This document shows, piece after piece, positions 13,801 to 57,008 of a DNA stretch of 64,000 bases. The notes under the pieces were generated by a model, which searched no databases, had not been told where the DNA came from, and saw only the letters and a program-made list of their open reading frames with translations. Position 1 is the stretch's first letter. Each line of letters opens with the position of its first letter. Origin of the DNA: Candidatus Baltobacteraceae bacterium (lineage in GTDB: Bacteria; Vulcanimicrobiota; Vulcanimicrobiia; Vulcanimicrobiales; Vulcanimicrobiaceae); NCBI GenBank assembly GCA_036489885.1, contig DASXEW010000003.1, positions 1,302,001 to 1,366,000 on the forward strand, read 5' to 3'. A program made the position numbers and the translations under genes.

Positions 13801-14250
13801 AGCTCGAGCTCGGCCCAGGAAGCCAATCGCATCGTCGGCGAGATCGCGCTCTTACGCGAAGGCGGCGTCCCGGAAAACGAGATTATCGTCGTCACGCCGT
13901 ACAACGCGCAACGCAAGCTGATCGCTACAAAGCTGAAAGACGCCGGGCTCAACGTGCGCGTCGGCACCGTCGACAAATTCCAAGGCCAGGAAGCCGACGT
14001 CGTGTTCTATTCGATGGCCGCGTCGAGCGGCGAGGACGTGCCGCGCGGCACGGAGTTCTTGTTCGAACGCAATCGCTTCAACGTCGCGGTCTCGCGTGCC
14101 AAGGCGCTTAGCGTACTCGTTTGCAGCCCACGGTTGCTCGATATTCCCTGCAACACTCCGGAACAAATGGCGTTGGTCAACCTGCTCTGCAGTTTTGTGG
14201 AATTGGGGCGGCCCCTCGACTACGGCGCTTCGCGCCTACGCTCGGGGTGA
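10837..14250 (+). CDS. TM0106-type RecB-like nuclease / RNase H-like / superfamily 1 helicase fusion
   Basis: 1137 aa. The N-terminal PD-(D/E)XK nuclease starts with DGRFVYGATDLNNFLECRR and has EVIDTK (134-139). C21 and the later C216-x2-C219-x5-C225 are placed as in Fe-S nucleases of the Cas4/AddB type. Next comes an RNase H-like domain around FFDIEGDP (about 321-328). The C-terminal UPF1/Dna2-like helicase has Walker A GPPGSGKT (757-764), IDEAGQ (869-874), the late QGQEADV motif and RFNVAVSRAK. Such proteins are thought to process DNA or RNA ends; the exact role is unknown. The last 13 residues and the TGA stop come from a dispersed repeat (14212-14252), so the native C-terminus was probably changed. 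Confidence 0.88.
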   Translation: MQHVDGRFVYGATDLNNFLECRRLTELDGLAVRGELKRPEVEDEQLELIKRKGSEHEQRYLEAMEARYGGITKFERTEKGIAAYAAAEAETLAAMRAGMPCIYQATFFDGTFVGHTDFLRRIEKPSLLGAWSYEVIDTKLSLSAKPYFLIQLCNYSEHLARLQGTLPEFGYIVLGDENEEHFRLHDYFAYYRHLKTAFLAYVAEPVAEYPYSRKHCGICSWDSLCTKKRRDDDHLSLVAWMRRDQVGKLEDGGVATVAELAYAPETSRPTGMVLESFGKLRRQAELQVRGRASKTPLYEILPPEPATGFALMPEPARGDIFFDIEGDPLFEPGRGLEYLFGFWVPGEDAKYLAFWGCDRVQEKKAFENVVDFLIEQRKQFPTMHVYHYADYEKSALRKLAQLHGTREDEVDDLLRGEVFVDLYAVVRQALVISEESYGLKAIEKFYNVNRTTDVKAGGDSIVQFERWLLDGTPSILTDIENYNRDDCRSTYLLREWLLARRTEAIEKTGVAIDFRPVREPDAPCHLEYVVTCKKCQTRQKEEREEKRRGELERALLAREDASAQLLAHVVAYHRREDKPVWWAYFDRCENVDQLFEFDKEAIAHLMLRHDIEPYKLKSGDRNLVYAYGFPDQQHKMKPGDAHDPRTKASGEIIEIDDERNLLYLKRSGSLDEARATTELIPTGPRRTDAQREALVRIGSLFQAGHLADVHPATLDLLTGGDPRTAPRRRTLQPAEISAQSLLDVVRALDSSYLFIQGPPGSGKTTYGSQVVCDLLAEGKRVAVMSTGHKANHNMLQKVEECMQKRGRRFKGLYKHSGEESAYQSLLDSPMITSVDKNDLFEGGDYELAGGTSWLFAREKLVGTFDYLFIDEAGQVSLANALAASSCAKNVVLLGDPNQLAQVSQGSHPLEAGASILQHLLGEAQTVAPNRGIFLDVSYRMQPQICSFISDAMYEGRLKPGPDTALHHVTSGLTRRAGLEFIGVEHEGNSSSSAQEANRIVGEIALLREGGVPENEIIVVTPYNAQRKLIATKLKDAGLNVRVGTVDKFQGQEADVVFYSMAASSGEDVPRGTEFLFERNRFNVAVSRAKALSVLVCSPRLLDIPCNTPEQMALVNLLCSFVELGRPLDYGASRLRSG

Positions 14251-14252
14251 CA
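14212..14252 (-). repeat. REP-like element copy 1 (reverse orientation), overlapping a CDS end
   Basis: Read on the minus strand this is TTGTCACCCCGAGCG-TAGGCGCGAAGCGCCGTAG-TCGAGGG, the same element as at 35246 and 45211. It contains the perfect hairpin GGCGC-GAA-GCGCC. On the plus strand it encodes the final codons and the TGA of the helicase gene. Confidence 0.9.
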
Positions 14253-14273
14253 AAGCAGCAACCACCTCACCAC

Positions 14274-14345
14274 CGCGCACCCTAACATCGCGCACCCCGC
14301 CATCCCGCACCCCGCCATCGCGCACCCCGCCATCGCGCACCCACC
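14274..14345. repeat. 15-bp tandem repeat, about 4.8 units
   Basis: Units of CGCGCACCCCGCCAT repeat at 14274, 14289, 14304, 14319 and 14334, the first being CGCGCACCCTAACAT and the third having one C for G. The array fills the gap between the helicase stop and the small membrane gene at 14390. No protein-coding role is evident, and such arrays typically vary in copy number between strains. Confidence 0.85.
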
Positions 14346-34263: not shown

Positions 34264-35220
34264 ATGACGGGCGTCGATCTAGCGACCGGTCTGCGCTATT
34301 TCGGCGCAAAGGAAATGGAAGCGTTGACGCCCGCGCCGCAGCGAAGCTGCGAGCTTGCGGCGCAAGCGCTACGCTGGCTTGCGTCTGGTGAGATCGAAGT
34401 GCCGCCGAAGTTCGGCGTGCACCCGCACGATTTCAACGTGCACGCGATGCCCGCGTATTGCAAGCCGCTCGACGTGATCGCGGTCAAGTGGGTCGCCGAT
34501 TTTCCGCTCAATCGTGCTAAAGGCGTGCCCACCGTGAGCGCGATGATCATTCTGAACGACGGGCAAACCGGAATCCCGTACGCGATCATGGACGGCAATT
34601 GGCTGACCGGCGTTCGCACCGCCGCAATGACGGCGGTGTCGCTTGCAGCCTGTTCGCATGGCGCGAGCGTCATGGCGCTCATCGGCACGGGATTGCAAGC
34701 GCGCACACACCTCTCGATCATTCCGATTGCGCTTCCGTCGTTGCACACCGTGCGCGTCGTCGGCCGCACTCCGGACGCTGCAGAAAGATTCGTCGCTTCG
34801 AATCCGGTTGTATCGTCGCGCTTGAATGTCGAAGCCTTTGCCGACATCGGCGAGGCATTGAGCGGAGCCGATATCGTCGTCACGGCGACCAACGAAATCA
34901 ACAACCCGGTGCTCGATCCGAAGATGCTGCACAGCGGCGCGACCGTTGCGCTCGTCGACAATCCCGCAAAAGAGTTTGCCGTGCTTCGCTTGGCGGATCG
35001 TGTCATTGTCGACGATCGTGCGCCGTTCGAGACGCCGGAAGGACACCAGCGCTTCAAACGCGGCCTACCGCGAATCAATTCGGTGATCGGTCACATCTTA
35101 CTCGGCTCCGAGCGCGGTCGCACCGAACCCGATCAGCTCGTCGTCATCGCCAATCTCGGCAACGCGGCACTCGACGTCGTCTTCGCCGACGAGATTTATA
35201 AGAAAGCCACGGTCAGCTAG
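34264..35220 (+). CDS. Ornithine cyclodeaminase/mu-crystallin family protein
   Basis: 318 aa. VIAVKWVADFPLNRAKGVP contains the substrate-binding Lys, MDGNWLTGVRTAAMTAVS the Arg, and ALIGTGLQARTHL the NAD(P) loop. The family includes ornithine cyclodeaminase, alanine and lysine-derived imine reductases, and other imine-forming or -reducing enzymes; assignment below family level is not possible by eye. It starts 41 nt after ubiX on the same strand, possibly in the same transcript. A REP-like element follows the stop by 25 nt. Confidence 0.85.
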   Translation: MTGVDLATGLRYFGAKEMEALTPAPQRSCELAAQALRWLASGEIEVPPKFGVHPHDFNVHAMPAYCKPLDVIAVKWVADFPLNRAKGVPTVSAMIILNDGQTGIPYAIMDGNWLTGVRTAAMTAVSLAACSHGASVMALIGTGLQARTHLSIIPIALPSLHTVRVVGRTPDAAERFVASNPVVSSRLNVEAFADIGEALSGADIVVTATNEINNPVLDPKMLHSGATVALVDNPAKEFAVLRLADRVIVDDRAPFETPEGHQRFKRGLPRINSVIGHILLGSERGRTEPDQLVVIANLGNAALDVVFADEIYKKATVS

Positions 35221-35245: not shown

Positions 35246-35292
35246 TTGTCATCCCGAGCGTAGGCGCGAAGCGCCGCAGTCGAGGGACAGCG
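35246..35292 (+). repeat. REP-like element copy 2
   Basis: TTGTCATCCCGAGCG arm, central hairpin GGCGC-GAA-GCGCC, then AGTCGAGGGACAGCG arm. It occupies the whole convergent gap between the cyclodeaminase stop (35220) and the aspartic protease stop (35294). One base differs from copy 3 in the right arm (CGCAGTC against CGTAGTC). Confidence 0.9.
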
Positions 35293-35293
35293 A

Positions 35294-36190
35294 CTATCGC
35301 TCGAGGTACACGACGTCGTGCGCGTAATCGAAAGTGACGCGAAATGCTTCGAAAACGTCGCGACCGACGAGACCGTCGAGAAACATCGTTTTCATCCAGA
35401 CGGGTTCGTTATCGACGATCAGAATTCTCGTCATATTGAATCGAAAGTTTCCGAGACTGATCGGCTTCGTCTGAAATTCTTGGCCCGGTATAGATGGAGA
35501 ATTCACGAAGAAACTGGCGCCGACACCCAATCCCGACAGCGAGGGTCCTACAACTGCGTCCTTTGCGAACGACTGGAAAAGCAGCGTACGATCGTCGCCG
35601 GTATCAAACAGCATCGTTGCGCGCCTGTCGCCGAACATAACGTGCACCAGAGGCAGTTGATCGATAAAGCCGATGTCTATGGCGCTTCCGTGAATTTTGC
35701 TCGCATCGAAGCTTCCGTTCGGGTACACGACCACTTCGTGCTTTTGAAAGTCGAGCATAACGACGTTTGAGCGAAAGAAGGCGGAGCCGATTAATCCCGT
35801 GATGACGGTCCCATCCGGCCGTACCCATTCGCCCTTCATTCTGCCGAATCGGCAATTGTGCGCGTGCAGCGCTCCAACGTCCATATCTGTGACGAAACGG
35901 CGGGACCCGTTTTCGCTGATGCCGGCGGTTGCCGCAGCTCGCGGAGAGATAGCTAATGAGTTGGTCCCCGAATCGAGCAGAAACCAGAAGTTGTGTCCGT
36001 TGATCGTTCCTTGCACGAGAACGCCGTCTTTACTGAAATGCGACGGAATGATTTGCGGCGTCGTCGCATCGGTGACAAACAGATGATGCGGAGTCGGAGA
36101 CGGCGTCGGTACTGAAGTCTGCGCGTAGCTCGAGTTGTGCGATGCGAGCAAAAATCCGAACGCAAGAACGATCGACGCAAAACGGCGCAT
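35294..36190 (-). CDS. Exported two-lobed aspartyl protease (retropepsin-like domains)
   Basis: 298 aa with a signal peptide (SIVLAFGFLLASHNSSYAQ) and a short Pro/Thr linker. Two aspartic protease half-sites are present: FLLDSGTNSLAIS near residue 71 and MLFDTGDDRTLL near residue 196, each followed by a flap-like strand (MKGEWVRPDGTVITGLIG and FLDGLVGRDVF). The ALIG/GLVG motifs are the second hydrophobic-hydrophobic-Gly element of each lobe. It is probably active at the cell surface. The third gene after ispE, 12 nt behind the NTP-transferase. Confidence 0.75.
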   Translation of the reverse strand: MRRFASIVLAFGFLLASHNSSYAQTSVPTPSPTPHHLFVTDATTPQIIPSHFSKDGVLVQGTINGHNFWFLLDSGTNSLAISPRAAATAGISENGSRRFVTDMDVGALHAHNCRFGRMKGEWVRPDGTVITGLIGSAFFRSNVVMLDFQKHEVVVYPNGSFDASKIHGSAIDIGFIDQLPLVHVMFGDRRATMLFDTGDDRTLLFQSFAKDAVVGPSLSGLGVGASFFVNSPSIPGQEFQTKPISLGNFRFNMTRILIVDNEPVWMKTMFLDGLVGRDVFEAFRVTFDYAHDVVYLER

Positions 36191-43752: not shown

Positions 43753-45210
43753 GTGCTAATGGACTACGTCGATACAGGCGTCGTGCCATTTCACACGCCC
43801 GGACACCAACAGGGTCACGGGATGGATCGTGCTTTTCGCGAGTTCGTCGGCGACAACGTGTTGGCGATCGATCTCACGCAGATCCGCGGCCTCGACGATC
43901 TGTTGCAGCCTGAAAGCGCGCTGGTCGATGCGCAAGAGCTTGCGGCGCAAGCCTACGGCGCCGATCATTCGTTCTTTTTGATCAACGGGAGTACAAGCGG
44001 CAATCAGTGCATGATGATGGCCGCGATCAATCCCGGCGAAAAAATCGCAATTCCGCGTAACTCACACAAGAGCGCGATGGGCGCTCTTATTATGAGTGGC
44101 GCTATTCCGGTGTACATGCAGCCGCAAGTCAGCGAAGCGCTGCACATGGACCACACCGTTACGCCAGAAACGGTGAAGGCCACGCTCGAAGCAAACCCCG
44201 ATGTGAAAGCCGTCTACGTCGTGAGCCCGACGTACTACGGCGCGCAAGCAAATCTCGCGGCCATCGCGCGCATCTCGCACGCGCATCACGTGCCGCTGCT
44301 CGTCGATGAAGCCTGGGGCCCGCACTTCCATTTTCATCCAGCGCTGCCGACCGACGCGCTGGCTGCGGGCGCCGACATGTGCATCAACTCGACGCACAAG
44401 ATGATCGGCTCGATGTCGCAAACCGCGATGTTGCATCTGCAAGGCCGGCGCATACCGCTCGACCGCGTCAAGGCAGTCTACAAACTCTTTCTCTCGACGT
44501 CGCCGAATTTGGTGCTGGTCGCATCGCTCGACGTCGCACGACGTCAGATGGCGACGATTGGTGAAGCGCTGCTCGCGCGCACGATCGATCTCGCGAACGA
44601 AATCCGCCGGCAGCTCAACGAGATTCCGAACGTCTATTGCTTTGGACGCGAGCTCGTCGACGGCAAAGGCGTCTACGACTTCGATCCGTGCAAGATCACG
44701 ATCACGGTCAAGGATCTTGGCTACACGGGTTATGAGGCCGAAGAGATTCTGCGCCGGCGCTACAACGTGCAAGTCGAGCTCGCCGATCTCTTCAACTGCG
44801 TCGCGCTGATCACGATCGGCACGACCGGGAAGGCTGCTGACGAGCTCGTGCACGCGGTGCGCGAGCTGGCACGCGAAGACCGTCCGGTCGACATCTTTTC
44901 GCCCTCGGGCGTCCTCGAGCGCCGGATCAAAACCGGGACGTACCATTTGCCGAAGATTCCGCCGATGCGGCTCTCGCCGCGCGAAGCGTTTCTGTCGCCG
45001 ACCGAGCTCATTCCGTTCAAACAGAGCGCCGGACGCGTGTGCGCCGAGGTCATCACGCCGTATCCGCCTGGCATTCCGGTGATCTCACCCGGCGAGGTGA
45101 TCACGAAAGAGATCATCGACTATTTGGGCCTTGAGAAGAAAGCCGGTGTGAAGATGCAGGGTCCCTACGACGACGACCTCCGCCGCATCCGCGTAGTCAA
45201 GGGCGTCTAA
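43753..45210 (+). CDS. Orn/Lys/Arg decarboxylase, fold type I PLP enzyme
   Basis: 485 aa from GTG at 43753. FHTPGHQQG, the INGSTSGNQ phosphate loop, VDEAWGPHFHFHP and STHKMIGSMSQ with the PLP Lys are all present, followed by the C-terminal domain (YPPGIPVISPGEVIT). It decarboxylates a basic amino acid to make agmatine, cadaverine or putrescine. The family's PKLDQNRTPYFDVL lead-in is encoded in frame upstream of the GTG, but no ATG, GTG, TTG or CTG lies between it and the previous in-frame stop near 43671. In Firmicutes a homologue precedes tmk and holB, as it does here at some distance. Confidence 0.9.
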   Translation: MLMDYVDTGVVPFHTPGHQQGHGMDRAFREFVGDNVLAIDLTQIRGLDDLLQPESALVDAQELAAQAYGADHSFFLINGSTSGNQCMMMAAINPGEKIAIPRNSHKSAMGALIMSGAIPVYMQPQVSEALHMDHTVTPETVKATLEANPDVKAVYVVSPTYYGAQANLAAIARISHAHHVPLLVDEAWGPHFHFHPALPTDALAAGADMCINSTHKMIGSMSQTAMLHLQGRRIPLDRVKAVYKLFLSTSPNLVLVASLDVARRQMATIGEALLARTIDLANEIRRQLNEIPNVYCFGRELVDGKGVYDFDPCKITITVKDLGYTGYEAEEILRRRYNVQVELADLFNCVALITIGTTGKAADELVHAVRELAREDRPVDIFSPSGVLERRIKTGTYHLPKIPPMRLSPREAFLSPTELIPFKQSAGRVCAEVITPYPPGIPVISPGEVITKEIIDYLGLEKKAGVKMQGPYDDDLRRIRVVKGV

Positions 45211-45258
45211 CTTGTCATCCCGAGCGTAGGCGCGAAGCGCCGTAGTCGAGGGACAGCG
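45211..45258 (+). repeat. REP-like element copy 3
   Basis: Starts at the base after the decarboxylase stop. Arms TTGTCATCCCGAGCG and AGTCGAGGGACAGCG enclose GGCGC-GAA-GCGCC. Confidence 0.92.
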
Positions 45259-45315
45259 GAAATCGTTGAGTCTCAAGTACCACATGTAATCTGAGGATTC
45301 GGGAATGCTAAGAGC

Positions 45316-45693
45316 ATGCGTTGGATCCGCCCCGCCGGATTTGCACTCGCGATGCTCTTGCTGATGACCTCGCCCGCGGTCGCCGATTCGCCGGTGCAGC
45401 AGCTCGAAAGCAGCGTGCGTGCCTCGCTTTCGACCGTCGGGACAACTGACGACGCTGCCGGGCTAGTACGCGCACGGCCGTCGATCAAGACAGCCGTCGC
45501 CCCAGAGGTCACCCAACGTGCCCCGGATCCATTGATGACGGTCGTGCATCGCGTCATGAACTTGACCGGCGGCTGGCGCCTCAGTGCGGGCATAAGCCCC
45601 GGGATGCAAATCCTTGGCGTTACCGCCAACGGACGCGTCGTCGAAGATCATTGGATGAATTTCCACATAAGCGTAGGCCTGCCACTGAGATAA
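45316..45693 (+). CDS. Exported hypothetical protein
   Basis: 125 aa with a clear signal peptide (RPAGFALAMLLLMTSPAVADS; predicted cut near residue 24). The mature part is about 100 residues with a C-terminal strand region (GWRLSAGISPGMQILGVTAN, WMNFHISVGLPLR) that could form a small beta structure. No family recognised. It lies between two REP-like copies. Confidence 0.65.
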   Translation: MRWIRPAGFALAMLLLMTSPAVADSPVQQLESSVRASLSTVGTTDDAAGLVRARPSIKTAVAPEVTQRAPDPLMTVVHRVMNLTGGWRLSAGISPGMQILGVTANGRVVEDHWMNFHISVGLPLR

Positions 45694-45708
45694 TCTCGTC
45701 GGGCGCCT

Positions 45709-45807
45709 TTGTCATCCCGAGCGTAGGCGCGATCTTGTCATCCCGAGCGTAGGCGCGATCTTGTCATCCCGAGCGTAGGCGCGAAGCGCCGTAGTCGAGG
45801 GACAGCG
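45709..45807 (+). repeat. REP-like element copies 4a-c: tandem triplication
   Basis: Two truncated 26-bp units (TTGTCATCCCGAGCGTAGGC + GCGATC; 45709-45734 and 45735-45760) precede one full element (45761-45807). Each short unit stops inside the central hairpin. The array begins 16 nt after a stop codon and ends 13 nt before the next start; GAGGGA at its right end may serve as a ribosome site for the FUSC gene. Confidence 0.93.
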
Positions 45808-45819
45808 AACAACCTCATC

Positions 45820-47199
45820 GTGGCAACAATGGTTCGCGCAACAGTCACGCTTCTGGCGGTCGTCATTAGCTTTCTCGCGGAGGCAGCGTTGTGCGCGCGT
45901 TTCGACGCAGGCAGCGGCCCCGCCATGACCGCCGCGTTCTTGGCGCTCGGACTCGGCCGCCGTGCAACGACGCGATCGCTGCAGGCGACGCTGATCGCGA
46001 TCGCGACGCTGCCGCTCGTCGCGATCGCCGGTACGGCGTTCGCCCTCCTTGCGCACACGGAACCCATCGCCGGCGCAGCCCTCTACGTCGTCGCGATGTC
46101 ACTCGCCGTGTGGTCGCGCGGATTTGGCGAACGTTGGGCGCGCATCGGCGAGGTCGTTGCGTTCCCGTTGCTTGCGATGCTCATCGTCCCGGCCGCACCG
46201 CGCGCGCCTGGCGGAACGCTCGTCGATCTTGGCTTGATCATCGCGGCCGGCATCGTCCCGTACGTCATGGTCACGTTGCTGTCGACCGTCGCGCTTCGCC
46301 TGAACCTCGTTCATGCAGATCATCACGTACCGAGACCGCCGACCGAGCGTTCGCGCAACATCAGCATGCGCATGGCGCCACAAGTCGTTGTCTCACTCAG
46401 CGCCGCGTTCGCGCTTGGCATGCTTGTGTTTCCGCATCACGTCGCGTGGGTCGTGCTCACAGCGTTCATCGTTTCGGGAGCAACGCGCGGACGCGAAGAC
46501 GCTGCGTATCGTGCGCTCGCGCGCGTTGCCGGCGCCGTAGGCGGCACGATCGCGGCCGCCGTACTGCAATACGCGGTTCCCGCAGACGCAAGCGTCTCGT
46601 GGGCCGTCATTCTCATTTGTTTGTTCGCCGGAACGGCACTGCGCGAGTTCAACTACGCCTACTGGGCCGCGGCATTCACGCTTGTCCTTGCGATGCTGCA
46701 GCGCTTCGGCGAAGGCTTCAGCTTCGTATTACTCGGCTCGCGCATCGAAGCAATCATTGCGGGCGCGATCTGCGGCGTGCTGGCCGCGTGGTTTGTGATG
46801 CCGATTCCAACCAAGCTCGTCGCGCGGCGTCTCGTTGCTGACGCGCTGAACGCACTCCTCGATCTCTTCGCTTCCGGGGAAAGGCCGCGCGAGCGGCATC
46901 ACGAGCTTCGTATTTTCGAGCATCGGATCAAAGAGCTCGACAACGTCGGGCCGGCGCTCGCTTTTCACCGACGGCTGCCAACCGTCGATGACGACGATCA
47001 CGCCTCAGAATGGATCGGCCTGCTCCGGTCGACGCTTCCGGGCGTACGCGCCCTCACGACGGAAGACGGAGCCCTGGGAGAGGAGCGCCGCGCCGCAATC
47101 GAGCGCGCCGTTCAGCTCTCGAGACGGGCACTCGGAAAGGGTTCCGAACCCGTCGCCATGGCACTGCGGCGCCTCAAGGCGTCGGTCGACGAGAGGTGA
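45820..47199 (+). CDS. FUSC-family (aromatic acid exporter-like) membrane protein
   Basis: 459 aa from GTG at 45820 (ATG at 45829 also possible). Two blocks of hydrophobic helices (about 5-165 and 190-335) are joined by a polar linker; the second block has FVMPIPTKLVARRLVADAL at its end, then a C-terminal cytoplasmic helical domain (EHRIKELDNVGPALAFHRRL). This is the FUSC layout of AaeB/YccS-type proteins, which are thought to export aromatic acids or support envelope integrity. It is followed by the MBL-cupin gene, with an AGGTGAAGG site over its stop. Confidence 0.75.
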   Translation: MATMVRATVTLLAVVISFLAEAALCARFDAGSGPAMTAAFLALGLGRRATTRSLQATLIAIATLPLVAIAGTAFALLAHTEPIAGAALYVVAMSLAVWSRGFGERWARIGEVVAFPLLAMLIVPAAPRAPGGTLVDLGLIIAAGIVPYVMVTLLSTVALRLNLVHADHHVPRPPTERSRNISMRMAPQVVVSLSAAFALGMLVFPHHVAWVVLTAFIVSGATRGREDAAYRALARVAGAVGGTIAAAVLQYAVPADASVSWAVILICLFAGTALREFNYAYWAAAFTLVLAMLQRFGEGFSFVLLGSRIEAIIAGAICGVLAAWFVMPIPTKLVARRLVADALNALLDLFASGERPRERHHELRIFEHRIKELDNVGPALAFHRRLPTVDDDDHASEWIGLLRSTLPGVRALTTEDGALGEERRAAIERAVQLSRRALGKGSEPVAMALRRLKASVDER

Positions 47200-47210
47200 A
47201 GGTTGCGCGC

Positions 47211-48311
47211 ATGTTAGCTCAAGAGACGACGAACCTTCTGCAGAAGACAAGCATCGACTGCGTGATGATGTGGTCGCGCTGGCAGCCCGATCGCACGATG
47301 AACTTCAATTCGTTCTTCATCAAGGGCAAGGAGAACGTACTGGTCGATCCGGTGGCCCTGACCGACGACGACGCGAAGGTGATCGATGCCGAAGGCGGCG
47401 TCGCCTGGATCGTGCTCACGACGCGCGATCACGAGCGCGAAGCAGCGGCGCTCGCGCAGCGCTTCAATGCAAAGATCGCGGCACCCGAGCTCGACGTGCC
47501 GGAGATCAAAGCGAAGGTTGATCGTCCGTTACGTGAAGGCGATCGCATCGGACGCGTCACCGTCGTGCAGCTTGAAGGGATGAAATCGCCGGGTGAGTTT
47601 GCGCTACAGCTCGATGACGACGCTACCGTGATCGTCGGCGACGCGCTCTGGGGTGATCCGCCTGGTTCGCTGCGAACAGTTCCGGACGCAAAGCTCGGTG
47701 ATGCAAAGAAGGCCGTGCTGAGCCTGCGCCGTCTGTGGGCACTCGAGCCGAAGAATATCTTAGTTGGCGACGGTTACTGTATCTTCGGCGGCGCGATGGC
47801 GGCGCTCGAAGCCTTCTTGAAATCGCGCAGCGACGTACTGATCTACAAGATCAATCTCGACGAGCTCGCGAATTGGAAGAAGCGCAAGGGCCCCGGCCGT
47901 CACGCGCGCAGCCAAGCCGAAGTCGGACTTTTACTCGGTGCGCGCAAGCTCGGTTATCAAATGTTCGAGATTCCACCCGGCAATTTCGCGACCGCGATGC
48001 ACATGCACACGGATGAAGAAGAGCTGTACGTCGTCTTCGATGGCGAGGGCGTGATCAGGTTCCCGTTCGGCGAGTATCCGATTCGCAAAGGCGATATGAT
48101 TGCAATGCCGATCGGAGATCACGCAACGCATCGCATTCAGAACACCGGCAAAGCACCGATGATCGTGCTTGCACTTGCGAACAACGCATCCGACGACAGC
48201 GTCTACTATCCGGATTCCGACAAGCTGCTCTACTCACGCCACGTAAAGCGGCGCATGGTCAGCGGCAACGGCGGCGCCGATCTCGACGCCTGGGCCGGAG
48301 AACCAGGTTAA
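47211..48311 (+). CDS. Metallo-beta-lactamase-fold/cupin fusion protein, MBL site degenerate
   Basis: 366 aa from ATG at 47211; an in-frame GTG at 47196 overlaps the FUSC stop (GTGA) and could add five residues. Residues about 15-210 follow an MBL domain: NSFFIKGKENVLVDPVAL, then VLTTRDHEREA where HxHxDH is expected (only D73 and H74 fit), EGMKSPGEF in place of the GHTPGS-type turn, and VGDALWGDP. Residues about 235-330 are a cupin with AMHMHTDEEELYVV (H264, H266, E270) and PIGDHATHRIQN. The cupin metal site looks intact; the MBL site does not. Possibly a small-molecule sensor or isomerase. Confidence 0.75.
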   Translation: MLAQETTNLLQKTSIDCVMMWSRWQPDRTMNFNSFFIKGKENVLVDPVALTDDDAKVIDAEGGVAWIVLTTRDHEREAAALAQRFNAKIAAPELDVPEIKAKVDRPLREGDRIGRVTVVQLEGMKSPGEFALQLDDDATVIVGDALWGDPPGSLRTVPDAKLGDAKKAVLSLRRLWALEPKNILVGDGYCIFGGAMAALEAFLKSRSDVLIYKINLDELANWKKRKGPGRHARSQAEVGLLLGARKLGYQMFEIPPGNFATAMHMHTDEEELYVVFDGEGVIRFPFGEYPIRKGDMIAMPIGDHATHRIQNTGKAPMIVLALANNASDDSVYYPDSDKLLYSRHVKRRMVSGNGGADLDAWAGEPG

Positions 48312-48333
48312 CCTTGCACGTGAGTGCACACGT

Positions 48334-48384
48334 TTGTCATCCCGAGCGCAGCAACGCGAAGCGTTGCGAAGTCGAGGGACAGCG
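48334..48384 (+). repeat. REP-like element copy 5, variant stem
   Basis: Same arms as the other copies but the hairpin is GCAACGC-GAA-GCGTTGC, a 7-bp stem with changes on both sides that keep all pairs. It sits between the MBL-cupin stop (48311) and the end of the small opposite-strand ORF (48389). Confidence 0.92.
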
Positions 48385-48388
48385 CTAA

Positions 48389-48547
48389 TTACCAAGACCA
48401 AGGGTACAACGTCAGCCACCAAGCAAGCTCGACGCAGCGAAGTCGGAAGTCTGGGTCAATCCAAAATTTGTAAACGCAAAGCGCTATCGGAATGCCGAGA
48501 AGCAGCATCAGCGTGATGAAGCCCGAGACGTCACCTACGACCGACAT
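48389..48547 (-). CDS. Small single-helix membrane protein
   Basis: 52 aa from ATG at 48547 to TAA at 48389: MSVVGDVSGFITLMLLLGIP, then IALCVYKFWIDPDFRLR and a Trp-rich end (LAWWLTLYPWSW). One transmembrane helix at about 9-28, then a positively charged segment and a second, Trp-rich amphipathic stretch. The upstream ribosome site is weak. Coding-like composition and a lack of any other gene in the 500-nt gap support it. Similar small proteins often modulate larger membrane complexes, but the partner is unknown. Confidence 0.45.
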   Translation of the reverse strand: MSVVGDVSGFITLMLLLGIPIALCVYKFWIDPDFRLRCVELAWWLTLYPWSW

Positions 48548-48586
48548 CGAGTGAATCTACCGCCGTCCCCGCGCAAAGCGGCGGTT

Positions 48587-48626
48587 CCTCGACTACGCGC
48601 CTGCGGCGCTACGCTCGGGATGACAA
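48587..48626 (-). repeat. REP-like element copy 6 (reverse), variant stem
   Basis: On the minus strand: TTGTCATCCCGAGCGTAG, hairpin GCGCC-GCA-GGCGC, GTAGTCGAGG. The loop is GCA and the stem halves are swapped relative to copies 2-4, again fully paired. The right arm ends early. Confidence 0.88.
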
Positions 48627-48669
48627 TCCTGGGAACCGGAGCGAGTCTTTTGGGGTAAGGTTAAGTACA

Positions 48670-48812
48670 GGCCCTCTTCGGACGAACTAAGGTCCGGGGC
48701 CCGAATACTACATATGGTAGTCGTCCGACGGCAGGGTCCACTCCCTAGTACTTTGAAACGAACGATAACGTGAGGTCTCAGACCGAGCCGGCCCTTGTGA
48801 GGACAGCGCTAA
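48670..48812 (+). ncRNA. Structured 5' leader of the R3H ATPase gene (candidate regulatory RNA)
   Basis: A hairpin pairs GGCCC (48670-48674) with GGGCC (48697-48701) and CGGAC (48679-48683) with GTCCG (48692-48696). ACTAC-ATATG-GTAGT (48707-48721) and GGTC-TCA-GACC (48774-48784) follow. A second GGCCC at 48790-48794, only 5 nt before the GAGG ribosome site (48799-48802), could compete for the same GGGCC. No known riboswitch class is recognised. Whether it is an RNA element rather than chance pairing in GC-rich DNA is an inference. Confidence 0.4.
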
Positions 48813-50366
48813 TTGGCAATTAATGCCGAAGCCTTTTCGCCGTCTTGGGAGCTCACGCAGCTCCTAGACATTTTTCCGCTACCGATCCGTCAGGCACTGA
48901 TCCGCCTGCCGAACGTCAACGAGATCATCGAGGTCGTGCTCGACCTCGGCCGGCCGCCTGAGGCGCGGTTCGAGAACGGGTTCGTGTTCCTGACGGACAC
49001 GCTCGTTACGCACGAAGAAATCGCGCATGTTGCTTCGCACCTCTCGCCGTTTGGCGCAGATAACCGCGCGGGCATCGAGCGCACCTTGCACCGGATCTCG
49101 GCGATCCGCAATCGCACCGGAAAGATCATCGGTCTTTCGTGCCGCGTTGGTCGCGCAATCTACGGCACCGTCGACATCATTCTTGATGTGGTGCGCGCCG
49201 GAAAATCGATTTGCTTGCTTGGCCGCCCTGGCGTTGGTAAGACGACGATGCTGCGCGAATGCGCGCGCATCCTGAGCGAGGACGGCAAGCGCGTCGTCGT
49301 CGTTGACACATCGAACGAAATTGCCGGTGATGGCGATGTCCCGCATCCGGGAATCGGCCACGCACGGCGTATGCCTGTTGCTGATCCGTCGCTCCAACAT
49401 AACGTGATGATCGAAGCGGTTGAAAATCATATGCCACAGGTCATCGTGATCGACGAAATCGGCACCGAAATGGAAGCCCTCGCAGCCCGCACGATCGCGG
49501 AACGCGGCGTTCAGCTGATCGGTACGGCGCACGGCCAGACGCTCAGCAATATTCTCAAGAATCCAACGCTTTCCGATCTGCTGGGCGGCATTCAAGCCGT
49601 CACACTTTCCGATGAGGAAGCGCGGCGCCGGGGAACGCGCAAGAGCGTGCTCGAGCGCAAAGCTCCGCCGACCTTCGACGTCCTGATCGAGATCGTCGAT
49701 CGCGGCCGCCTTGCGATTCATCGCAACGTAGCCGAAGTCGTTGACGCGCTGCTGCGCGGCTACCAACCGCAGCCCGAGATCCGCGAGCGCGGACCGGCCG
49801 GCAACGTCACGGTCGTGCAACAAGCCGACACGCAGGTGTTGCCGCCACCAACCGCTCGGATGGACGACGTCGAGTCCGAGGCAGCAGCCGAGCAAGAAAA
49901 GCCGCTGATGATCTTCCCATACGGCGTCTCGCGCAACAAGATCGAGCGCGCCGTGACCAATCTGCGCGTCAGCGCGTCGATTGCACGCAAGTGGGATGAC
50001 GCGGACGTGGTGCTTACGCTCAAAACGCTCGAGCGCAAAGAGTCGGCTAAGCTCAAGATAATTGCCTCTGAGAACATTCCGATCTACACGATCAAGACGA
50101 ACACGACCACGCAGATCCAGCATGCGCTCAAAGACATCTTCGACTTGCCGTCGATCGACGCCGAAGAGCTTGCGCTACACGAAGCCGAAGAAGCGATCTA
50201 TCAGGTGCTGCTCGAGAACAAAGCCATCGAGCTTACGCCGCAGACCTCGTACATTCGGCGCATGCAACATCAGATGGCTGAACGCCATCGTCTGCAATCA
50301 CGCAGCACCGGCCTCGAGCCGAATCGCCGCGTACAAATCTACCGGGGAGCCGACTCGATCGCCTAG
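48813..50366 (+). CDS. AAA ATPase with R3H domain, Ycf45/SpoIIIAA-like
   Basis: 517 aa from TTG at 48813 (GAGG at 48799-48802 fits). The ATPase part has Walker A GRPGVGKTT (137-145), Walker B VIVIDEIGTE (D214, E215) and the sensor-like TAHGQTLSNIL. It is the SpoIIIAA-type secretion-ATPase fold, but here followed by a C-terminal R3H domain (RRMQHQMAERHRLQSRSTG, then EPNRRVQI), which binds single-stranded nucleic acids. This is the Ycf45 family of cyanobacteria, plastids and some Terrabacteria. Its precise function is unknown; the preceding leader suggests regulated translation. Confidence 0.88.
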   Translation: MAINAEAFSPSWELTQLLDIFPLPIRQALIRLPNVNEIIEVVLDLGRPPEARFENGFVFLTDTLVTHEEIAHVASHLSPFGADNRAGIERTLHRISAIRNRTGKIIGLSCRVGRAIYGTVDIILDVVRAGKSICLLGRPGVGKTTMLRECARILSEDGKRVVVVDTSNEIAGDGDVPHPGIGHARRMPVADPSLQHNVMIEAVENHMPQVIVIDEIGTEMEALAARTIAERGVQLIGTAHGQTLSNILKNPTLSDLLGGIQAVTLSDEEARRRGTRKSVLERKAPPTFDVLIEIVDRGRLAIHRNVAEVVDALLRGYQPQPEIRERGPAGNVTVVQQADTQVLPPPTARMDDVESEAAAEQEKPLMIFPYGVSRNKIERAVTNLRVSASIARKWDDADVVLTLKTLERKESAKLKIIASENIPIYTIKTNTTTQIQHALKDIFDLPSIDAEELALHEAEEAIYQVLLENKAIELTPQTSYIRRMQHQMAERHRLQSRSTGLEPNRRVQIYRGADSIA

Positions 50367-50369
50367 CCG

Positions 50370-51047
50370 CTAGTGCTTGGCGCCTTGAACCTCGACTTTG
50401 CCCGTTCCGTCAATTAAGAACGTCGTGTCGTACTGACGGATCTCGCCTTCGACATCGATACGGCTGTGCACGTGGCAGCGGTGAATCTCTTGCGCGCCGC
50501 GCTTGACGACGCCCGAATACGTCATACGCAGCAGCGGGGCTTGCCCCGGTCCCGGTACCGACATGTGGTTCATTTGCACGAGCGAGTTGACGATTTGCTG
50601 TTGAATCGCAAGCGGCAAGAGCCGGAACGCGTCGTCAGACTTGTTCTGTACGGCCTTGAGTTCGTCGGCGCCGCGGTTGACCGGCGCCGGTGTATCGTTG
50701 CAGAAGCGAACGACTGCGTCCCAGTCATCAGCCGAAATGCCCGCGAACTTCGTCGCGAAGCGGTGCCAGGTCGTACCCGCGTTCTGCACCGCGTCATGGC
50801 GAACGACTTGCAAGCGAATGGTCATCATTCGCTCGGCGATCTTCATCTGCACCGTGAATTCGGGCGTTGGTGGTTTGTCTTTGAGAACGATCAAAGCACC
50901 GGTCGCTGAAATCTCCTGGCCAACGCCGTCGATAACCGTGTTCTCATCTTTATTCCAGCGCACCGGATACGTAACTGTTTTGCGGTTGTGTCCGCGGCGC
51001 TCTGGACCCTTACTTCCACCAAAAATTTTGGCAAGTTCGTAAAGCAC
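50370..51047 (-). CDS. PilZ-domain protein
   Basis: 225 aa. RRGHNRKTV gives the RxxxR part of the c-di-GMP site and EISATGALI the (D/N)xSxxG part (Glu at the first position instead of Asp), in the order typical of PilZ. The C-terminal 100 residues have beta strands (RMTYSGVVKRGAQEIHRCHV, YDTTFLIDGTGKVEV) resembling a lipoprotein-like or second-lobe domain. Possibly senses c-di-GMP to control motility or envelope traits. It converges with the R3H ATPase gene. Confidence 0.75.
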   Translation of the reverse strand: MLYELAKIFGGSKGPERRGHNRKTVTYPVRWNKDENTVIDGVGQEISATGALIVLKDKPPTPEFTVQMKIAERMMTIRLQVVRHDAVQNAGTTWHRFATKFAGISADDWDAVVRFCNDTPAPVNRGADELKAVQNKSDDAFRLLPLAIQQQIVNSLVQMNHMSVPGPGQAPLLRMTYSGVVKRGAQEIHRCHVHSRIDVEGEIRQYDTTFLIDGTGKVEVQGAKH

Positions 51048-51090
51048 GTCCTCACCTTTCCCGATCGCTCGGTTGACCTGGGTATTGCGG

Positions 51091-51105
51091 CTAGGCGGGG
51101 CCTAG
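51091..51105. promoter_or_regulatory. Perfect inverted repeat between PilZ gene and tmk
   Basis: CTAGGC-GGG-GCCTAG (6-bp arms, 3-nt loop) in the 82-nt divergent spacer. A TTGACC at 51073-51078 might be a -35 element for tmk, but no good -10 box is seen. Could be an operator or a small mRNA hairpin. Confidence 0.35.
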
Positions 51106-51129
51106 ACCTTGAGCGCGAAGCAGGGTGCG

Positions 51130-51774
51130 ATGTTCATCACCTTCGAGGGTATCGAGGGATCTGGCAAGTCCACCCTGATGCAACGCGTTGAACAAGCACT
51201 CCGCGAGCGTGGCGAAGACGTCCTGCAAACGCGGGAACCTGGGGGCACGCCGCTCGGAGACGAGGTGCGCAAAATCTTCCTCGATCCGGCCCAGAAAATC
51301 GTCCCGATGGCGGAGGTCATGCTGCTGTGCGCATCCCGTTCTCAGCTATGCACCGACGTTATTCGGCCGGCGCTGCGCGCCGGACGGACGGTCTTGTGCG
51401 ATCGCTTCTTCGACTCCACGATTGCCTACCAGGGATACGGGCGTGGCATGGACGTCGAGGAGCTGCTGCAGGTCTGCCTTGCGGCGACCTCCGGACTGAC
51501 GCCGGATCTTACGTTTATCCTTGATCTTCCGCCGGAAATCGCCTTACCGCGCGTCGTCGCGCGTGCCGCGAACGGGGGACACGCCGTCGATCGCATGGAG
51601 CGCGAGTCGCTCGATTTCCATCGCGCGGTCCGCGCGGGCTACCTTGACATGGCGCGTCGTTGGAGCCGGCGCTTCGTCGTCGTCGACGTGGAGCAGCCGC
51701 CGGAAGCCAGCGTGAAGACGATCCTCGCCGCGGTCGATCACGCGCGGGTAGGACTTCGCACGACGGCTTCGTGA
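51130..51774 (+). CDS. tmk: Thymidylate kinase
   Basis: 214 aa from ATG at 51130 (TTG at 51109 would add seven residues). P-loop EGIEGSGKST (6-15), the TREPGGTPLGDEVR loop that binds dTMP, DRFFDSTIAYQGYGRG (DRX motif) and a short LID with RAANGGHAVDRME. It phosphorylates dTMP to dTDP in the cytoplasm. The stop overlaps the holB start (GTGA), the classic tmk-holB pairing. Confidence 0.96.
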   Translation: MFITFEGIEGSGKSTLMQRVEQALRERGEDVLQTREPGGTPLGDEVRKIFLDPAQKIVPMAEVMLLCASRSQLCTDVIRPALRAGRTVLCDRFFDSTIAYQGYGRGMDVEELLQVCLAATSGLTPDLTFILDLPPEIALPRVVARAANGGHAVDRMERESLDFHRAVRAGYLDMARRWSRRFVVVDVEQPPEASVKTILAAVDHARVGLRTTAS

Positions 51775-52772
51775 GCGAATTCGACGTCGTCGGCGCCGAG
51801 GGCCCGACGAAATTCTTCTCGGCTTATACGCGCGAGCGGCTTGCGCACGGTTACTTGTTCACCGGACCAGACGGCGTCGGGAAGCGCACCTTCGCGCAGC
51901 GACTGGCGCAATCGCTGCTGTGCGTCACGCCGAAGTCGACACTGCTCGGCTACTGCGGGCACTGCAGCGGCTGCAAGATGGTGCAATCCCGCACTCATCC
52001 CGATTTGTTTGCGACGCGCGGACAGCTGAAGATCGGCGAGCGCGACGTCGAGCAAGGCTTTCACGAATCCGAGGAAACGACGGCGAGGGATCTTGTCAGA
52101 CAATTCTCGCTGCACGCCTATGAAGACGGCTGGCGCATCTTCATTTTCGAAGACGTCGACTTCACGCGCGAGGCGGCGAATGCGCTGCTGGCGTTTTTCG
52201 AAGATCCGCCGGCGCGCGTGCTCTTGCTGCTCACGAGCGACGCGCCGGGCAGATTGCTCGAAACGATTCGCTCGCGGCTGATCGAGGTGCGCTTCCCGCT
52301 GTTCTCGCGCGCGCAAGTCGAAGAGATCTTGCGCAAGATGGGTCACACCGATGCGAAAGAGATCGCGCGGGCGGCGCTGCTCTCGCAAGGCAGCGTCGAT
52401 CGCGCCGTCGCGTCGCTTGGCGGGGAATCGCGTGAAGTTCGCGATGCGGCGATCGCGTGGTTCTACGGAGTCGTGCAAGGCGGCGATGTCGATGACGGTC
52501 ACTGGGCGGTGCGCGACACGCTCGAAGAGGGGCTCGAGACGATCAAAACGCTGACGCGCGATTGGCTCGTGTTACGTATCGCGGGCAAAGAGGTTGCGCC
52601 GCTGGCTTCCGATGAAGCGCGCTCGGTCGGAAAACTTTCGGCCGTCGAGGTGAGCGATCTCGTTCGCGCGCTGACTGCGATCGAAGAAGCCGAACGGATC
52701 GCGCGCACCAACGTCACGCCGCATCTTGTCGCGGAATCCGTCCGTATGGCCCTCGCCGCATGCTCCCGCTAA
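51771..52772 (+). CDS. holB: DNA polymerase III delta' subunit
   Basis: 333 aa from GTG at 51771. A Walker A-like loop GPDGVGKRT is followed by a zinc module with Cys 51, 62, 65 and 68 (CVTPKSTLLGYCGHCSGCK), the four-Cys spacing of clamp-loader subunits. The later IRSRLIEVRF segment corresponds to the SRC motif, but its Cys is Leu, so an arginine finger may be kept while the Cys is not. The subunit helps load the sliding clamp at replication forks. Coupled to tmk by a 4-nt overlap. Confidence 0.93.
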   Translation: MSEFDVVGAEGPTKFFSAYTRERLAHGYLFTGPDGVGKRTFAQRLAQSLLCVTPKSTLLGYCGHCSGCKMVQSRTHPDLFATRGQLKIGERDVEQGFHESEETTARDLVRQFSLHAYEDGWRIFIFEDVDFTREAANALLAFFEDPPARVLLLLTSDAPGRLLETIRSRLIEVRFPLFSRAQVEEILRKMGHTDAKEIARAALLSQGSVDRAVASLGGESREVRDAAIAWFYGVVQGGDVDDGHWAVRDTLEEGLETIKTLTRDWLVLRIAGKEVAPLASDEARSVGKLSAVEVSDLVRALTAIEEAERIARTNVTPHLVAESVRMALAACSR

Positions 52773-52787
52773 GCGACCTACGCCCCG

Positions 52788-52836
52788 GTGTCATCCTGAG
52801 CGTAGCGCACGAAGTGCGCGTAGTCGAAGGACAGCG
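52788..52836 (+). repeat. REP-like element copy 7, variant stem
   Basis: Left arm GTGTCATCCTGAGCG, hairpin GCGCAC-GAA-GTGCGC (6-bp stem, all pairs kept), right arm AGTCGAAGGACAGCG. It starts 15 nt after the holB stop and ends 6 nt before the CoA-transferase ATG, so the AAGGA in the right arm (52827-52831) can serve as its ribosome site. Confidence 0.9.
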
Positions 52837-52842
52837 AGATTG

Positions 52843-53991
52843 ATGCTCAACGAGGACGACGTTCTCCCACTGCACGATGTTCGTGTCGTTGAGTTCTGTC
52901 ACACGATCATGGGGCCGTCGTGCGGTTTCGTGCTTGCGGAGCTTGGCGCCGATGTCGTCAAGGTTGAAGCCGCACCGAGCGGTGACGCAACACGACGGCT
53001 GGGCGGCTTTGCAGCGGGATTCTTTCCGTGCTTCAACCGCAGCAAGCGCAGCCTCGTCGTTGATCTGAAAACCGAGCGCGGAAAAGCGATCGTTCGCAAG
53101 TTGATCGAGCGGTCTGATGTGCTAATCGAGAACTATGGCCCGGGAACGCTCGACCGTTTGGGTTTCGGCGCCGACGCGGTCGAGAAGATGAACCCGAAGC
53201 TCATCTACTGCGCCCTCAAAGGCTTCTTGCAAGGACCCTACGAGCGCCGCCCCGCGCTCGATGAAGTCGTGCAGTACATGACTGGCCTTGCATACATGAC
53301 GGGACTTCCCGATCGTCCGCTCCGGGCAGGCTCGTCGATCGTCGATATCATGGGCGGCGTGTTCGGCGTCGTCGGAATTCTTGCGGCGTTGCGGGAGCGC
53401 GAGCGCACCGGGAAGGGCGCGCGCATCACGGCCTCTCTCTTTGAGAGCGCGGCATTCTTGGTCGCGCAGCACATGGCGGCCGAAGCCGTAACGGGCCTGC
53501 CGCCACCGCCAATGTCGATGCGCTATCCGGCGTGGGGCATTTACGAGACATTTCCGACCAAGGATGGCACGCCAATCTTTATCGGCGCCACGTCAAACGC
53601 GCATTTTGAGAGCTTTTGCCGTGCGCTCGGACGCGAAGATCTGCTCGCAGTCCCTGAGTTCTCGGATAACAACAAGCGCGTTGCTGCGAAAGAGAAGCTG
53701 ATCCCGATCGTGGCTGAGATCGTGCGCAAGCATAGCTTTAACGATCTTGCGAAGATCTTTGAGCGCGAATCGATCCCGTTCTCGCCCGTCGCCAAGCCGG
53801 GCGATTTATTTGAGGACCCGCATCTCAATTCTCACGGCTGGCTGGAACGCACCGAGCTTGCAACCGGGACGATGACGAAACTGCCCGGCATTCCGCTCGA
53901 ATTCGCCGACCACAAGCTCGGCCTGCGCCATCAACCGCCGCAGCTCGGCGAGCACACCGATGAGATTCTCAAAGAGCTGGGGTTTTCGTAG
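52843..53991 (+). CDS. CaiB/BaiF-family (class III) CoA transferase
   Basis: 382 aa from ATG at 52843; the frame stays open 39 codons upstream through the repeat. VRVVEFCHTIMGPSCGFVLAEL, GADVVKVEA, then NRSKRSLVVDLKTERGKAIV and the AGSSIVDIMGGVFGV segment containing the catalytic Asp of the family are all present. It transfers CoA between carboxylic acids by a mixed-anhydride mechanism without ping-pong release. It may supply activated acids for the same type of catabolism as the PaaK-like operon, but no partner lies next to it. Confidence 0.9.
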   Translation: MLNEDDVLPLHDVRVVEFCHTIMGPSCGFVLAELGADVVKVEAAPSGDATRRLGGFAAGFFPCFNRSKRSLVVDLKTERGKAIVRKLIERSDVLIENYGPGTLDRLGFGADAVEKMNPKLIYCALKGFLQGPYERRPALDEVVQYMTGLAYMTGLPDRPLRAGSSIVDIMGGVFGVVGILAALRERERTGKGARITASLFESAAFLVAQHMAAEAVTGLPPPPMSMRYPAWGIYETFPTKDGTPIFIGATSNAHFESFCRALGREDLLAVPEFSDNNKRVAAKEKLIPIVAEIVRKHSFNDLAKIFERESIPFSPVAKPGDLFEDPHLNSHGWLERTELATGTMTKLPGIPLEFADHKLGLRHQPPQLGEHTDEILKELGFS

Positions 53992-53996
53992 CCTTT

Positions 53997-54605
53997 TCAT
54001 CCCGACACGGAGCCGGTAGATTCACGGCGACGGCGTCGCGCTAGGAACATAAACGCAACTGTAGTCGCGATAAACACGAGTCCGGTTATTGCGTTCACGA
54101 TATCCGCCGGCAAGAGCGCCGTTGCGAGGAGGCAAACGGCGAATGGTGTCGTCCACAGGAACGTGAACGTTGCGCCACGCCGCGCACCGGCGGGATCGGG
54201 ACCGATGCGTGCAGCGATGAGGTGCTGAAACCCGAGAATACCGTAGGCGAGCGTGTACGCGCCGAAATACATGCGGACGGCGATAATGTCGCTCATCGAA
54301 CGAACGTAGAGTTGCGTCGCATAGACGAGCAGCACGACGACCGCGAGCCAAATGAAGTTGAGAATCACCGGCCACGGTTTCGGAACGAAGAATCGCGAGA
54401 AGAGGCGATGGTGAAAGAACCACATGCTGCACACGACCGCGAAGGCGAGGACGAATCCGAAGAGCCAGCTCGGGTTTTGCACGAGCGAGATCGCATGTTC
54501 GGGGATGATGAGCGACGCACCGAGCTGTGCAAGACTGAAGCCGATGACGATGTCGGAGAACGCCTCGAGACGATGGACGAAATGCCTGGCCGACTCGTCG
54601 CTCAC
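53997..54605 (-). CDS. TMEM175-like potassium channel family protein (DUF1211)
   Basis: 202 aa from GTG at 54605, overlapping the upstream stop (GTGA). Residues about 9-19 read HRLEAFSDIVI, the RxxxFSD pore-helix signature of TMEM175, followed by six hydrophobic helices in all, the later ones with VYATQLYVRSMSD and FVLAFAVVCSMWFFHHR. Bacterial TMEM175 homologues form tetrameric K+ channels. Last gene of a four-gene minus operon headed by mtnP. Confidence 0.78.
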   Translation of the reverse strand: MSDESARHFVHRLEAFSDIVIGFSLAQLGASLIIPEHAISLVQNPSWLFGFVLAFAVVCSMWFFHHRLFSRFFVPKPWPVILNFIWLAVVVLLVYATQLYVRSMSDIIAVRMYFGAYTLAYGILGFQHLIAARIGPDPAGARRGATFTFLWTTPFAVCLLATALLPADIVNAITGLVFIATTVAFMFLARRRRRESTGSVSG

Positions 54606-55330
54606 GTGGTTCGTCGAGCCATAATTCGTTGCACGACGATCCCGATAACGTAGAACGCGACGAAGCCGTACAGACCATACGGCATCGGCGCGAAGAAACA
54701 ACAGAACCCAAGAAACATCGCGAGCGTGAAGACCTCGGTCTTCAGGCCCTGCGCGAGATTTGGTTTCAGGTCACCTTCGGCCGGGACCGGTTTCAGGCGC
54801 GGCCACAAGCGCGGCACGCTCGCGCGATAGCGTTCGTACGCTTCGCCGAACGTTGTGCGAAGCACCGGCTCCTCGTGATCGATCAGCCGGTTGATCAAGT
54901 ATGCATTGGCGATGAGAATGAAGGCGGCGCCCGACGGTGGCGCTACGAGAGCAAACCCGAGCGACATGAACATGTTGCCGAGGTAGAGCGGGTTGCGCGT
55001 GTAGCGGAACGGGCCCTCGACGAACAGTCTCTCGGCTTTGGCGTCCGCGTTCCATACGATCGAGGCTTGCAAGTAACTCGAACCGGAGAGGCGGATCAAA
55101 AAGCACATCAGCACGCACAAGAGCGCGAACAAAAACAGCGCGTTGATCGTCGCGTCGCCACCAGCGAGCGAACCAATGAGCACGATCGTCGGTACATACG
55201 GCGTATTCGAGAAGCCGTCGACAACGATCGGAATCCAAAAGCCGGCACCGTACAGCATGCCGAAGACGCTCGAGCGGTTTCGATACCACCACGGCGATTG
55301 CGGCGCACCGGTACCCGGCGTCTCGATCAT
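54602..55330 (-). CDS. Isoprenylcysteine carboxyl methyltransferase/PEMT-like membrane methyltransferase
   Basis: 242 aa, about six membrane helices. EGPFRYTRNPLYLGNMFMSLGF is the SAM-binding signature of the ICMT/PEMT superfamily; EEPVLRTTFGEAYERYRASVPR carries the conserved EE...FG..Y..Y...V motif. The methyl acceptor in bacteria is usually a lipid or another membrane compound and is not known here. It starts 1 nt after the preceding stop. Confidence 0.83.
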   Translation of the reverse strand: MIETPGTGAPQSPWWYRNRSSVFGMLYGAGFWIPIVVDGFSNTPYVPTIVLIGSLAGGDATINALFLFALLCVLMCFLIRLSGSSYLQASIVWNADAKAERLFVEGPFRYTRNPLYLGNMFMSLGFALVAPPSGAAFILIANAYLINRLIDHEEPVLRTTFGEAYERYRASVPRLWPRLKPVPAEGDLKPNLAQGLKTEVFTLAMFLGFCCFFAPMPYGLYGFVAFYVIGIVVQRIMARRTT

Positions 55331-55331
55331 C

Positions 55332-56021: not shown

Positions 56022-56022
56022 T

Positions 56023-56829: not shown

Positions 56830-56881
56830 CTCTCCTTATCGTTGGACGGCGACCAGGTTACGGCAGGCGCGTCGCCCTCTC

Positions 56882-56906
56882 TTGTCACCCCGAGCGAAAT
56901 CGAGGC
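56882..56906 (+). repeat. Degenerate REP-like element remnant
   Basis: TTGTCACCCCGAGCG is followed directly by AAATCGAGG: the left arm and part of the right arm remain but the central hairpin is gone. It lies between mtnP and the padR promoter. Confidence 0.6.
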
Positions 56907-56921
56907 TCGGCCGATATACTC

Positions 56922-57008
56922 TTGACAGATCACGATATATCGCGATAGGATGCCGATAGGCCTATGCGATAGGCTGGAAAGGATCACTTTGAAGGCGGAC
57001 GGCATCAT
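56922..57008 (+). promoter_or_regulatory. padR promoter with palindromes and three CGATAGG repeats
   Basis: TTGACA at 56922-56927 and TAGGAT at 56946-56951 (18-bp spacer). Overlapping perfect palindromes CGATATATCG (56933-56942) and TATCGCGATA (56938-56947) sit on the core promoter; ATAGGCCTAT (56956-56965) and GCCTA-tgcga-TAGGC (56960-56974) follow. CGATAGG occurs at 56943, 56954 and 56967. A dimeric repressor, most simply PadR itself, probably binds here. Confidence 0.65.

Follow-up and report, generated by a model that had tools for sequence, protein, structure and literature searches.

A small DNA hairpin recurs along a 64,000-nucleotide stretch of the genome of a soil bacterium from a little-studied phylum. 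This whole stretch (G000:C3:1302001-1366000) is referred to as the window. The locus raises the question of what such a repeat is, how it stays paired, and how it came to lie at more than 100 scattered places in the host genome (G000, 3.48 Mb, 95.9% complete).

A dispersed repeat with a conserved fold

The repeat is a REP-type palindrome of about 50 bp. With a covariance model built on 21 copies, at least 127 copies were found in the genome (E<=0.01); this count is a lower bound because 150 of the 4504 first-look candidates were scored. Both arms are exact in 20 copies genome-wide, and the reversed control pattern gave 0 matches. The same applies to four of the seven copies in the window, with 0 expected from shuffles. 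In the named genome collection, exact-arm matches were obtained in nine stretches, all from one Candidatus Eremiobacterota MAG, and on this basis the host is provisionally placed in the phylum Eremiobacterota. A comparison of the window with Rfam gave no match for any known RNA family. The element is established as a dispersed repeat with a conserved structure.

The features of the window are collected in Table 1. The seven full copies and the remnant listed in the preliminary description are all present, 0-9 bases from where they had been placed, and their hairpin centres had been quoted correctly. The two arms said to be shared are exact in four of the seven copies, whereas the other three differ: the 14205 copy carries GTCACCCC/GAGGGG, the 52788 copy CATCCT/AAGGA, and the right arm of the 48578 copy is GAGGAACCGCC. 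For 14205 and 52788 these differences are compensated changes of the outer stem. They were absent from that description, as were the minus-strand orientation of two copies (14205 and 48578) and the tandem left halves directly upstream of the 45761 copy. The latter 26-bp units consist of the left arm, the left stem, the start of the loop and TC. The 48334 and 48578 copies form a heads-outward pair with 191 bp between them. A 15-bp tandem repeat (CCATCGCGCACCCCG, ~5 copies) adjoins the 14205 copy at window positions 14270-14342 (C3:1316270-1316342).

Table 1. Copies of the repeat and related sites in the window (window coordinates)
Position	Strand	Feature	Details
14205..14253	-	REP-like copy	arms of outer stem CCCC/GGGG, change compensated; hairpin centre GGCGC-GAA-GCGCC
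35246..35294	+	REP-like copy	flanked by the convergent genes 34264-35220 (+) and 35294-36190 (-)
45212..45260	+	REP-like copy	head 1 bp past the stop codon of 43822-45210 (+)
45709..45760	+	left-half array	two identical tandem 26-bp left-half units without right half
45761..45809	+	REP-like copy	full copy, closes the half-copy array 45709-45760
48334..48386	+	REP-like copy	centre GCAACGC-GAA-GCGTTGC
48578..48626	-	REP-like copy	centre GCGCC-GCA-GGCGC
50367..50369	.	empty site	convergent stop codons separated by 3 bp
52788..52838	+	REP-like copy	outer arms TCCT/AGGA (compensated); centre GCGCAC-GAA-GTGCGC; 15 bp past a gene end
56882..56905	+	remnant	left arm fused to decayed right arm; hairpin gone

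A copy is made up of the head TTGTC, an outer stem with interruptions (TCCC/GGGA or one of its compensated variants) that encloses an inner hairpin, and a tail with the consensus GCGAYAATS. Internal loops divide the stem into a part of 4 bp and one of up to 7 bp. The sequence of the inner stem varies, and its 3-base loop is mostly closed as C-GNA-G (90 of 125 copies). Such C-GNA-G mini-hairpins are stable in DNA. All hairpin counts refer to 125 of the 127 copies, as the other two could not be parsed.

It had been proposed that pairing, and not sequence, is kept in the element. This claim survived a genome-wide check for uncompensated stem changes, in which covariation was found in the inner hairpin as well as in the outer arms. 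Among the 46 copies of the commonest length class (of the 125 parsed), pairing over the inner hairpin and outer arms is present in 97.8% of 506 cells, and 10 of the 11 pairs show changes on both sides. Double-change cells number 128, versus 38 in shuffles, and the covariation score is 0.692 versus 0.199, with none of 500 shuffles scoring as well. When the partner is shifted by 1-3 columns the signal is gone, and no slid register comes close. The TGTC tag is invariant in these copies (46/46). For the outer arms, the quartet is Watson-Crick paired in 108 of the 125 copies (shuffled mean 57, maximum 72). The pairings are TCCC/GGGA in 76 copies, TCCT/AGGA in 21 and CCCT/AGGG in six, next to the rarer TGGT/ACCA (two), CCCC/GGGG (two) and TTCC/GGAA (one).

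The stem changes may stay paired through selection on the structure, be it recognised by a protein or required in an RNA, through template-switch repair of palindromes, or through both. In a purely mutational account, template switching corrects imperfect palindromes and no reader of the structure is needed. This is a real possibility, though probably not the correct one. The 125 copies contain 90 distinct hairpins, often with several pairs altered together while the arms are conserved, and the half arrays described below would fit as strand misbehaviour at the same hairpins. G-U intermediates are also few (7 of 322 inner-helix cells in the 46 copies), which leans towards pairing at the DNA level or changes in blocks. 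However, the outer stem, which is set apart by internal loops, is compensated as well (for example TGGT/ACCA and CCCT/AGGG). The retention of the C-GNA-G loop likewise argues for more than mutation, although it could be explained by inheritance.

Orientation and gene context

The copies are arranged in a polarised manner. Among neighbours within 200 bp of each other in the host genome, 28 heads-outward pairs (HH), four same-strand pairs (HT) and no tails-outward pairs (TT) were counted. This rule is strict in the host, and some tails-outward neighbours occur in the relatives G009 and G019. Spacers of 87-92 bp, palindromic by eye, are found in 12 of the 28 heads-outward pairs, and several of these are enclosed by a further inverted layer. 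The flank before the head is C-rich in the flank profile. Avoidance of identical hairpins within a pair was considered and rejected, since one of the 28 pairs is identical versus 1.0 expected.

Gene positions outside the window were taken from a codon-usage ORF caller and not from annotation. With each region counted once (n=93), 34 are convergent, 37 co-directional and 9 divergent, while 13 lie inside a gene or at an edge. In 43 of the 112 intergenic copies the head is no more than 30 bp from a gene 3' end, and in eight it is as close to a 5' end. Single copies between co-directional genes are in the sense orientation in 20 of 26 cases.

This placement next to stop codons, the sense bias and the rarity of divergent regions would all suit an element that functions chiefly as RNA at the 3' ends of mRNAs, for instance as a stabiliser or processing site, and whose pairing is under selection in the RNA. 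The same case has been made for other REPs by Di Nocera et al. (2013, PMC3733652). Placement at 3' ends is, however, also expected if insertions elsewhere were purged, and the low number of G-U pairs does not favour RNA. Moreover, a conserved host function is at odds with the patchy occurrence between species, including the fetched stretches of G002 and G009 that are syntenic to parts of the window carrying copies and themselves hold 0. An intrinsic terminator (GC hairpin plus T-run) was rejected as identity, as the 17 terminator-like sites include no window copy from 44000-57500; this also weighs against a role at transcript ends. Overall, the RNA interpretation appears unlikely.

Left-half arrays and inversion of pairs

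Two parts of the pattern would not be expected by a specialist, namely polarised half arrays and flipped interiors. Upstream of 32 of the 127 copies, 56 isolated left halves were found, and downstream none; for right halves the numbers are 0 upstream and one downstream, a chance-like match. The same polarity is seen with exact arms: 106 of the 151 left arms in the genome belong to full copies, leaving 45 outside, while all 61 right arms are in full copies and 0 outside. The arrays run in tandem from head to hairpin loop and contain the left half only. Their units are 25-37 bp long and are repeated up to eight times; most of them stop in the hairpin loop or close to it.

The statistics on these arrays omit two of the 31 loci, C3:100599 (a false match) and C1:14177 (ambiguous). 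Compared with the adjacent full copy, the halves match in 114 of 174 stem positions (68.5 when permuted) and in 25 of 29 arm quartets (10.9 when permuted). As the halves are far closer to the adjacent copy than to others, they are duplications made in place. Simple tandem duplication would predict a match between linker and upstream flank; the match seen is modest (p 0.007, 0.056 and 0.024 at 4, 5 and 6 bases) and clear by eye in few loci only.

For halves that belong to pairs, 8 of 23 fit the hairpin of the partner better than their own. In these eight, 35 of 48 bases match the partner, versus 18.7 at random; two of the eight score weakly (3 to 2 and 2 to 1). A reciprocal swap is present at C3:1661680/1661822. 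The simplest reading of the swapped halves and of the reciprocal case is an inversion of the pair's interior after the halves had formed. Half arrays thereby record the past orientation of a pair, so that inversion can be read from a single genome.

Left-half arrays also occur in other genomes: at 5 of 10 copies in G002, in G101, and at 3 of 29 copies in G009. The G009 number was obtained by eye (L182, L184 and L192), as the automatic count contains edge artefacts at L179. They were not seen at the 10 G019, 20 PLTN and two G001 copies examined. End-joining proficiency was considered as an explanation of which genomes carry half arrays, and was set aside as uninformative: Ku is found in 35 of the 41 genomes compared, both with and without observed arrays. 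A literature search for half-copy REP arrays gave no matching description in the portions of the sources covered, which is not proof of absence.

A distinct type of amplification involves whole copies, in tandem arrays of 48-60 bp units repeated up to ~9 times, at L179 (G009:C1:67500-71500; 1036-1555 and 1904-2135) and L195 (G083; 9075-9260). One G009 locus is dominated by such full-copy arrays instead of half arrays. Shorter units with a partly deleted left arm, still beside a full copy, were observed at L184 (G009; 1824-1868) and L200 (G101; 4920-5053), and measure 18 and 24 bp, respectively.

Spread and relation to known REP families

The element occurs in 15 of 41 genomes (the host and 40 relatives), seven of which hold at least 20 copies. 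In the phylum as a whole, 59 of 148 genomes contain it, patchily and all within the family of the host. Counts in genus g18 range from 3 to at least 40. One site differs between the host and G001, a member of the same genus: syntenic to the empty site of Table 1, G001 carries an insertion of ~300 bp with a heads-outward pair. The flanks are 73-80% identical in this comparison, which gives no base-exact insertion point. Nor does a long syntenic stretch of two g18 species, which is ~73% identical and has one shared site occupied by different elements. The earlier suggestion of a dispersed element is thus borne out, as the repeat is patchy in its distribution and one syntenic site is empty, and mobility is likely as far as genome comparison can tell. 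As no mobilising gene was found in the PF01797 search or in a Pfam scan of five bracketed ORFs, mobility rests on the distribution and on one presence/absence site.

The usual mobiliser of REPs is not supported. A profile search found no Y1_Tnp (PF01797) in the host genome; of the 41 genomes, 10 have the domain, and the seven copy-rich ones, five of which are more than 90% complete, all lack it. Consequently, the link to a RAYT in the preliminary description was not upheld. An autonomous copy was also looked for and rejected: the five host ORFs lying between copies gave no transposase in Pfam, four being ordinary genes (serpin, GrpB, DUF3501 and short-chain dehydrogenase) and the fifth having no Pfam match. 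The element resembles the GTAG REPs, REPINs and BIMEs that come with a RAYT in its short palindromes, inverted pairs, high copy number and patchiness, and in the GTAG that almost every copy has at the 5' foot of its inner hairpin (alignment columns 15-18). It is nevertheless very unlikely that the element belongs to the GTAG type and was moved by a RAYT (Y1 tyrosine transposase) that has diverged beyond recognition, was lost, or lies in the missing ~4% of the genome. The GTAG is located 14 bases inside the element instead of at its end and is not strictly kept (GGAG in PLTN copies), none of the five ORFs bracketed by copies matched a transposase in Pfam, and the Y1 gene that RAYT-mobilised REPs have, usually REP-flanked, was not found where copies abound.

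The nearest described kind is the super-family of CGTC-tagged REPs, which includes dRS3, RPE-4 and RPE-6 and was described as lacking a transposase (PMC3733652). In that account, the end tag is often changed from CGTC to TGTC, the form found here, HH dimers predominate and TT dimers are rare, stem variation is compensated, no transposase is associated, and the REPs are mostly intergenic at gene 3' ends. All of this applies to the present element too. However, the stem of CGTC REPs has 8-9 bp with complementary AT as its first two positions, in contrast to the two-part stem found here, in which the T pairs and the preceding A faces a C. Their loop has 4-5 bases instead of three, and their tail is unpaired and of CCA type instead of GCGAYAATS. 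Because these three defining features differ, the element is called CGTC-like and is not filed as a member. It is best seen as a new variant, a CGTC-like family that works like the CGTC REPs as portrayed there. For left-half arrays and interior swaps, no description was found in the parts of that account consulted.

The best explanation of the whole, to which a probability of about two in three is given, is a non-autonomous, TGTC-tagged REP-type repeat family with non-RAYT spread, whose hairpin acts as a hot spot. The non-coding element would have spread as a mobile repeat, placed just past stop codons as single copies or heads-outward pairs by a trans-acting enzyme, presumably something other than a Y1 (RAYT) transposase. 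Once placed, the hairpin would become the hot spot of duplications with one end a few bases beyond the head and the other in the loop of the hairpin, whereby the left half alone is copied. This could proceed by strand slippage, or by paired nicks at head and loop that are filled in and joined. The left-half unit would then amplify in tandem, and recombination between the inverted arms may flip the interior of a pair. The family offers a case that is rich in copies, apparently free of RAYT, and marked by polarised scars of duplication. Since the two ends of these scars point to the head and the hairpin loop, it can be tested which enzyme cuts there and whether arrays change between close strains.

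A bolder proposal, quite unlikely in our judgement, attributes the left-half arrays to a machine not yet described, which would cut these hairpins at the head and the loop tip and leave the arrays as its footprints. This machine would be the mobiliser, other than a RAYT, that is missing for TGTC/CGTC-tagged REPs. With every abortive round one extra left half would be left behind, and the arrays would be a written record of activity and of pair inversion.

Some pairs are part of larger structures. At ~13 loci of the host genome, an inverted pair of copies and the ~90-bp palindromic core between them form composites of ~195 bp (for example G000:C1:209537-209731 and C3:1507587-1507777), with GGGCACGATCGTGCCC at the centre of the core and often AAAGGGCCGCC in the flanks. 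These resemble layered MITE-like palindromes, and in several cases more inverted sequence surrounds the composite. Nesting of REP dimers in palindromes is likewise known from GTAG-15 of A. variabilis and CGTC-1 of H. neapolitanus (PMC3733652); in contrast to these, the outer layer here has tandem arrays of its own. This second array family, with units of 21-23 bp around ACCGGGCGCACGT, borders the composite palindromes on the outside (G000:C3:122492-122556, 122906-123096, C3:1262222-1262344, C1:64125-64187 and C1:434505-434558). Its CGGGCGCACGT units fold no better than shuffled sequence, and the outer-layer arrays are therefore kept apart from the hairpin. As with the half arrays, their growth is outward and starts from a single end of an inverted element.
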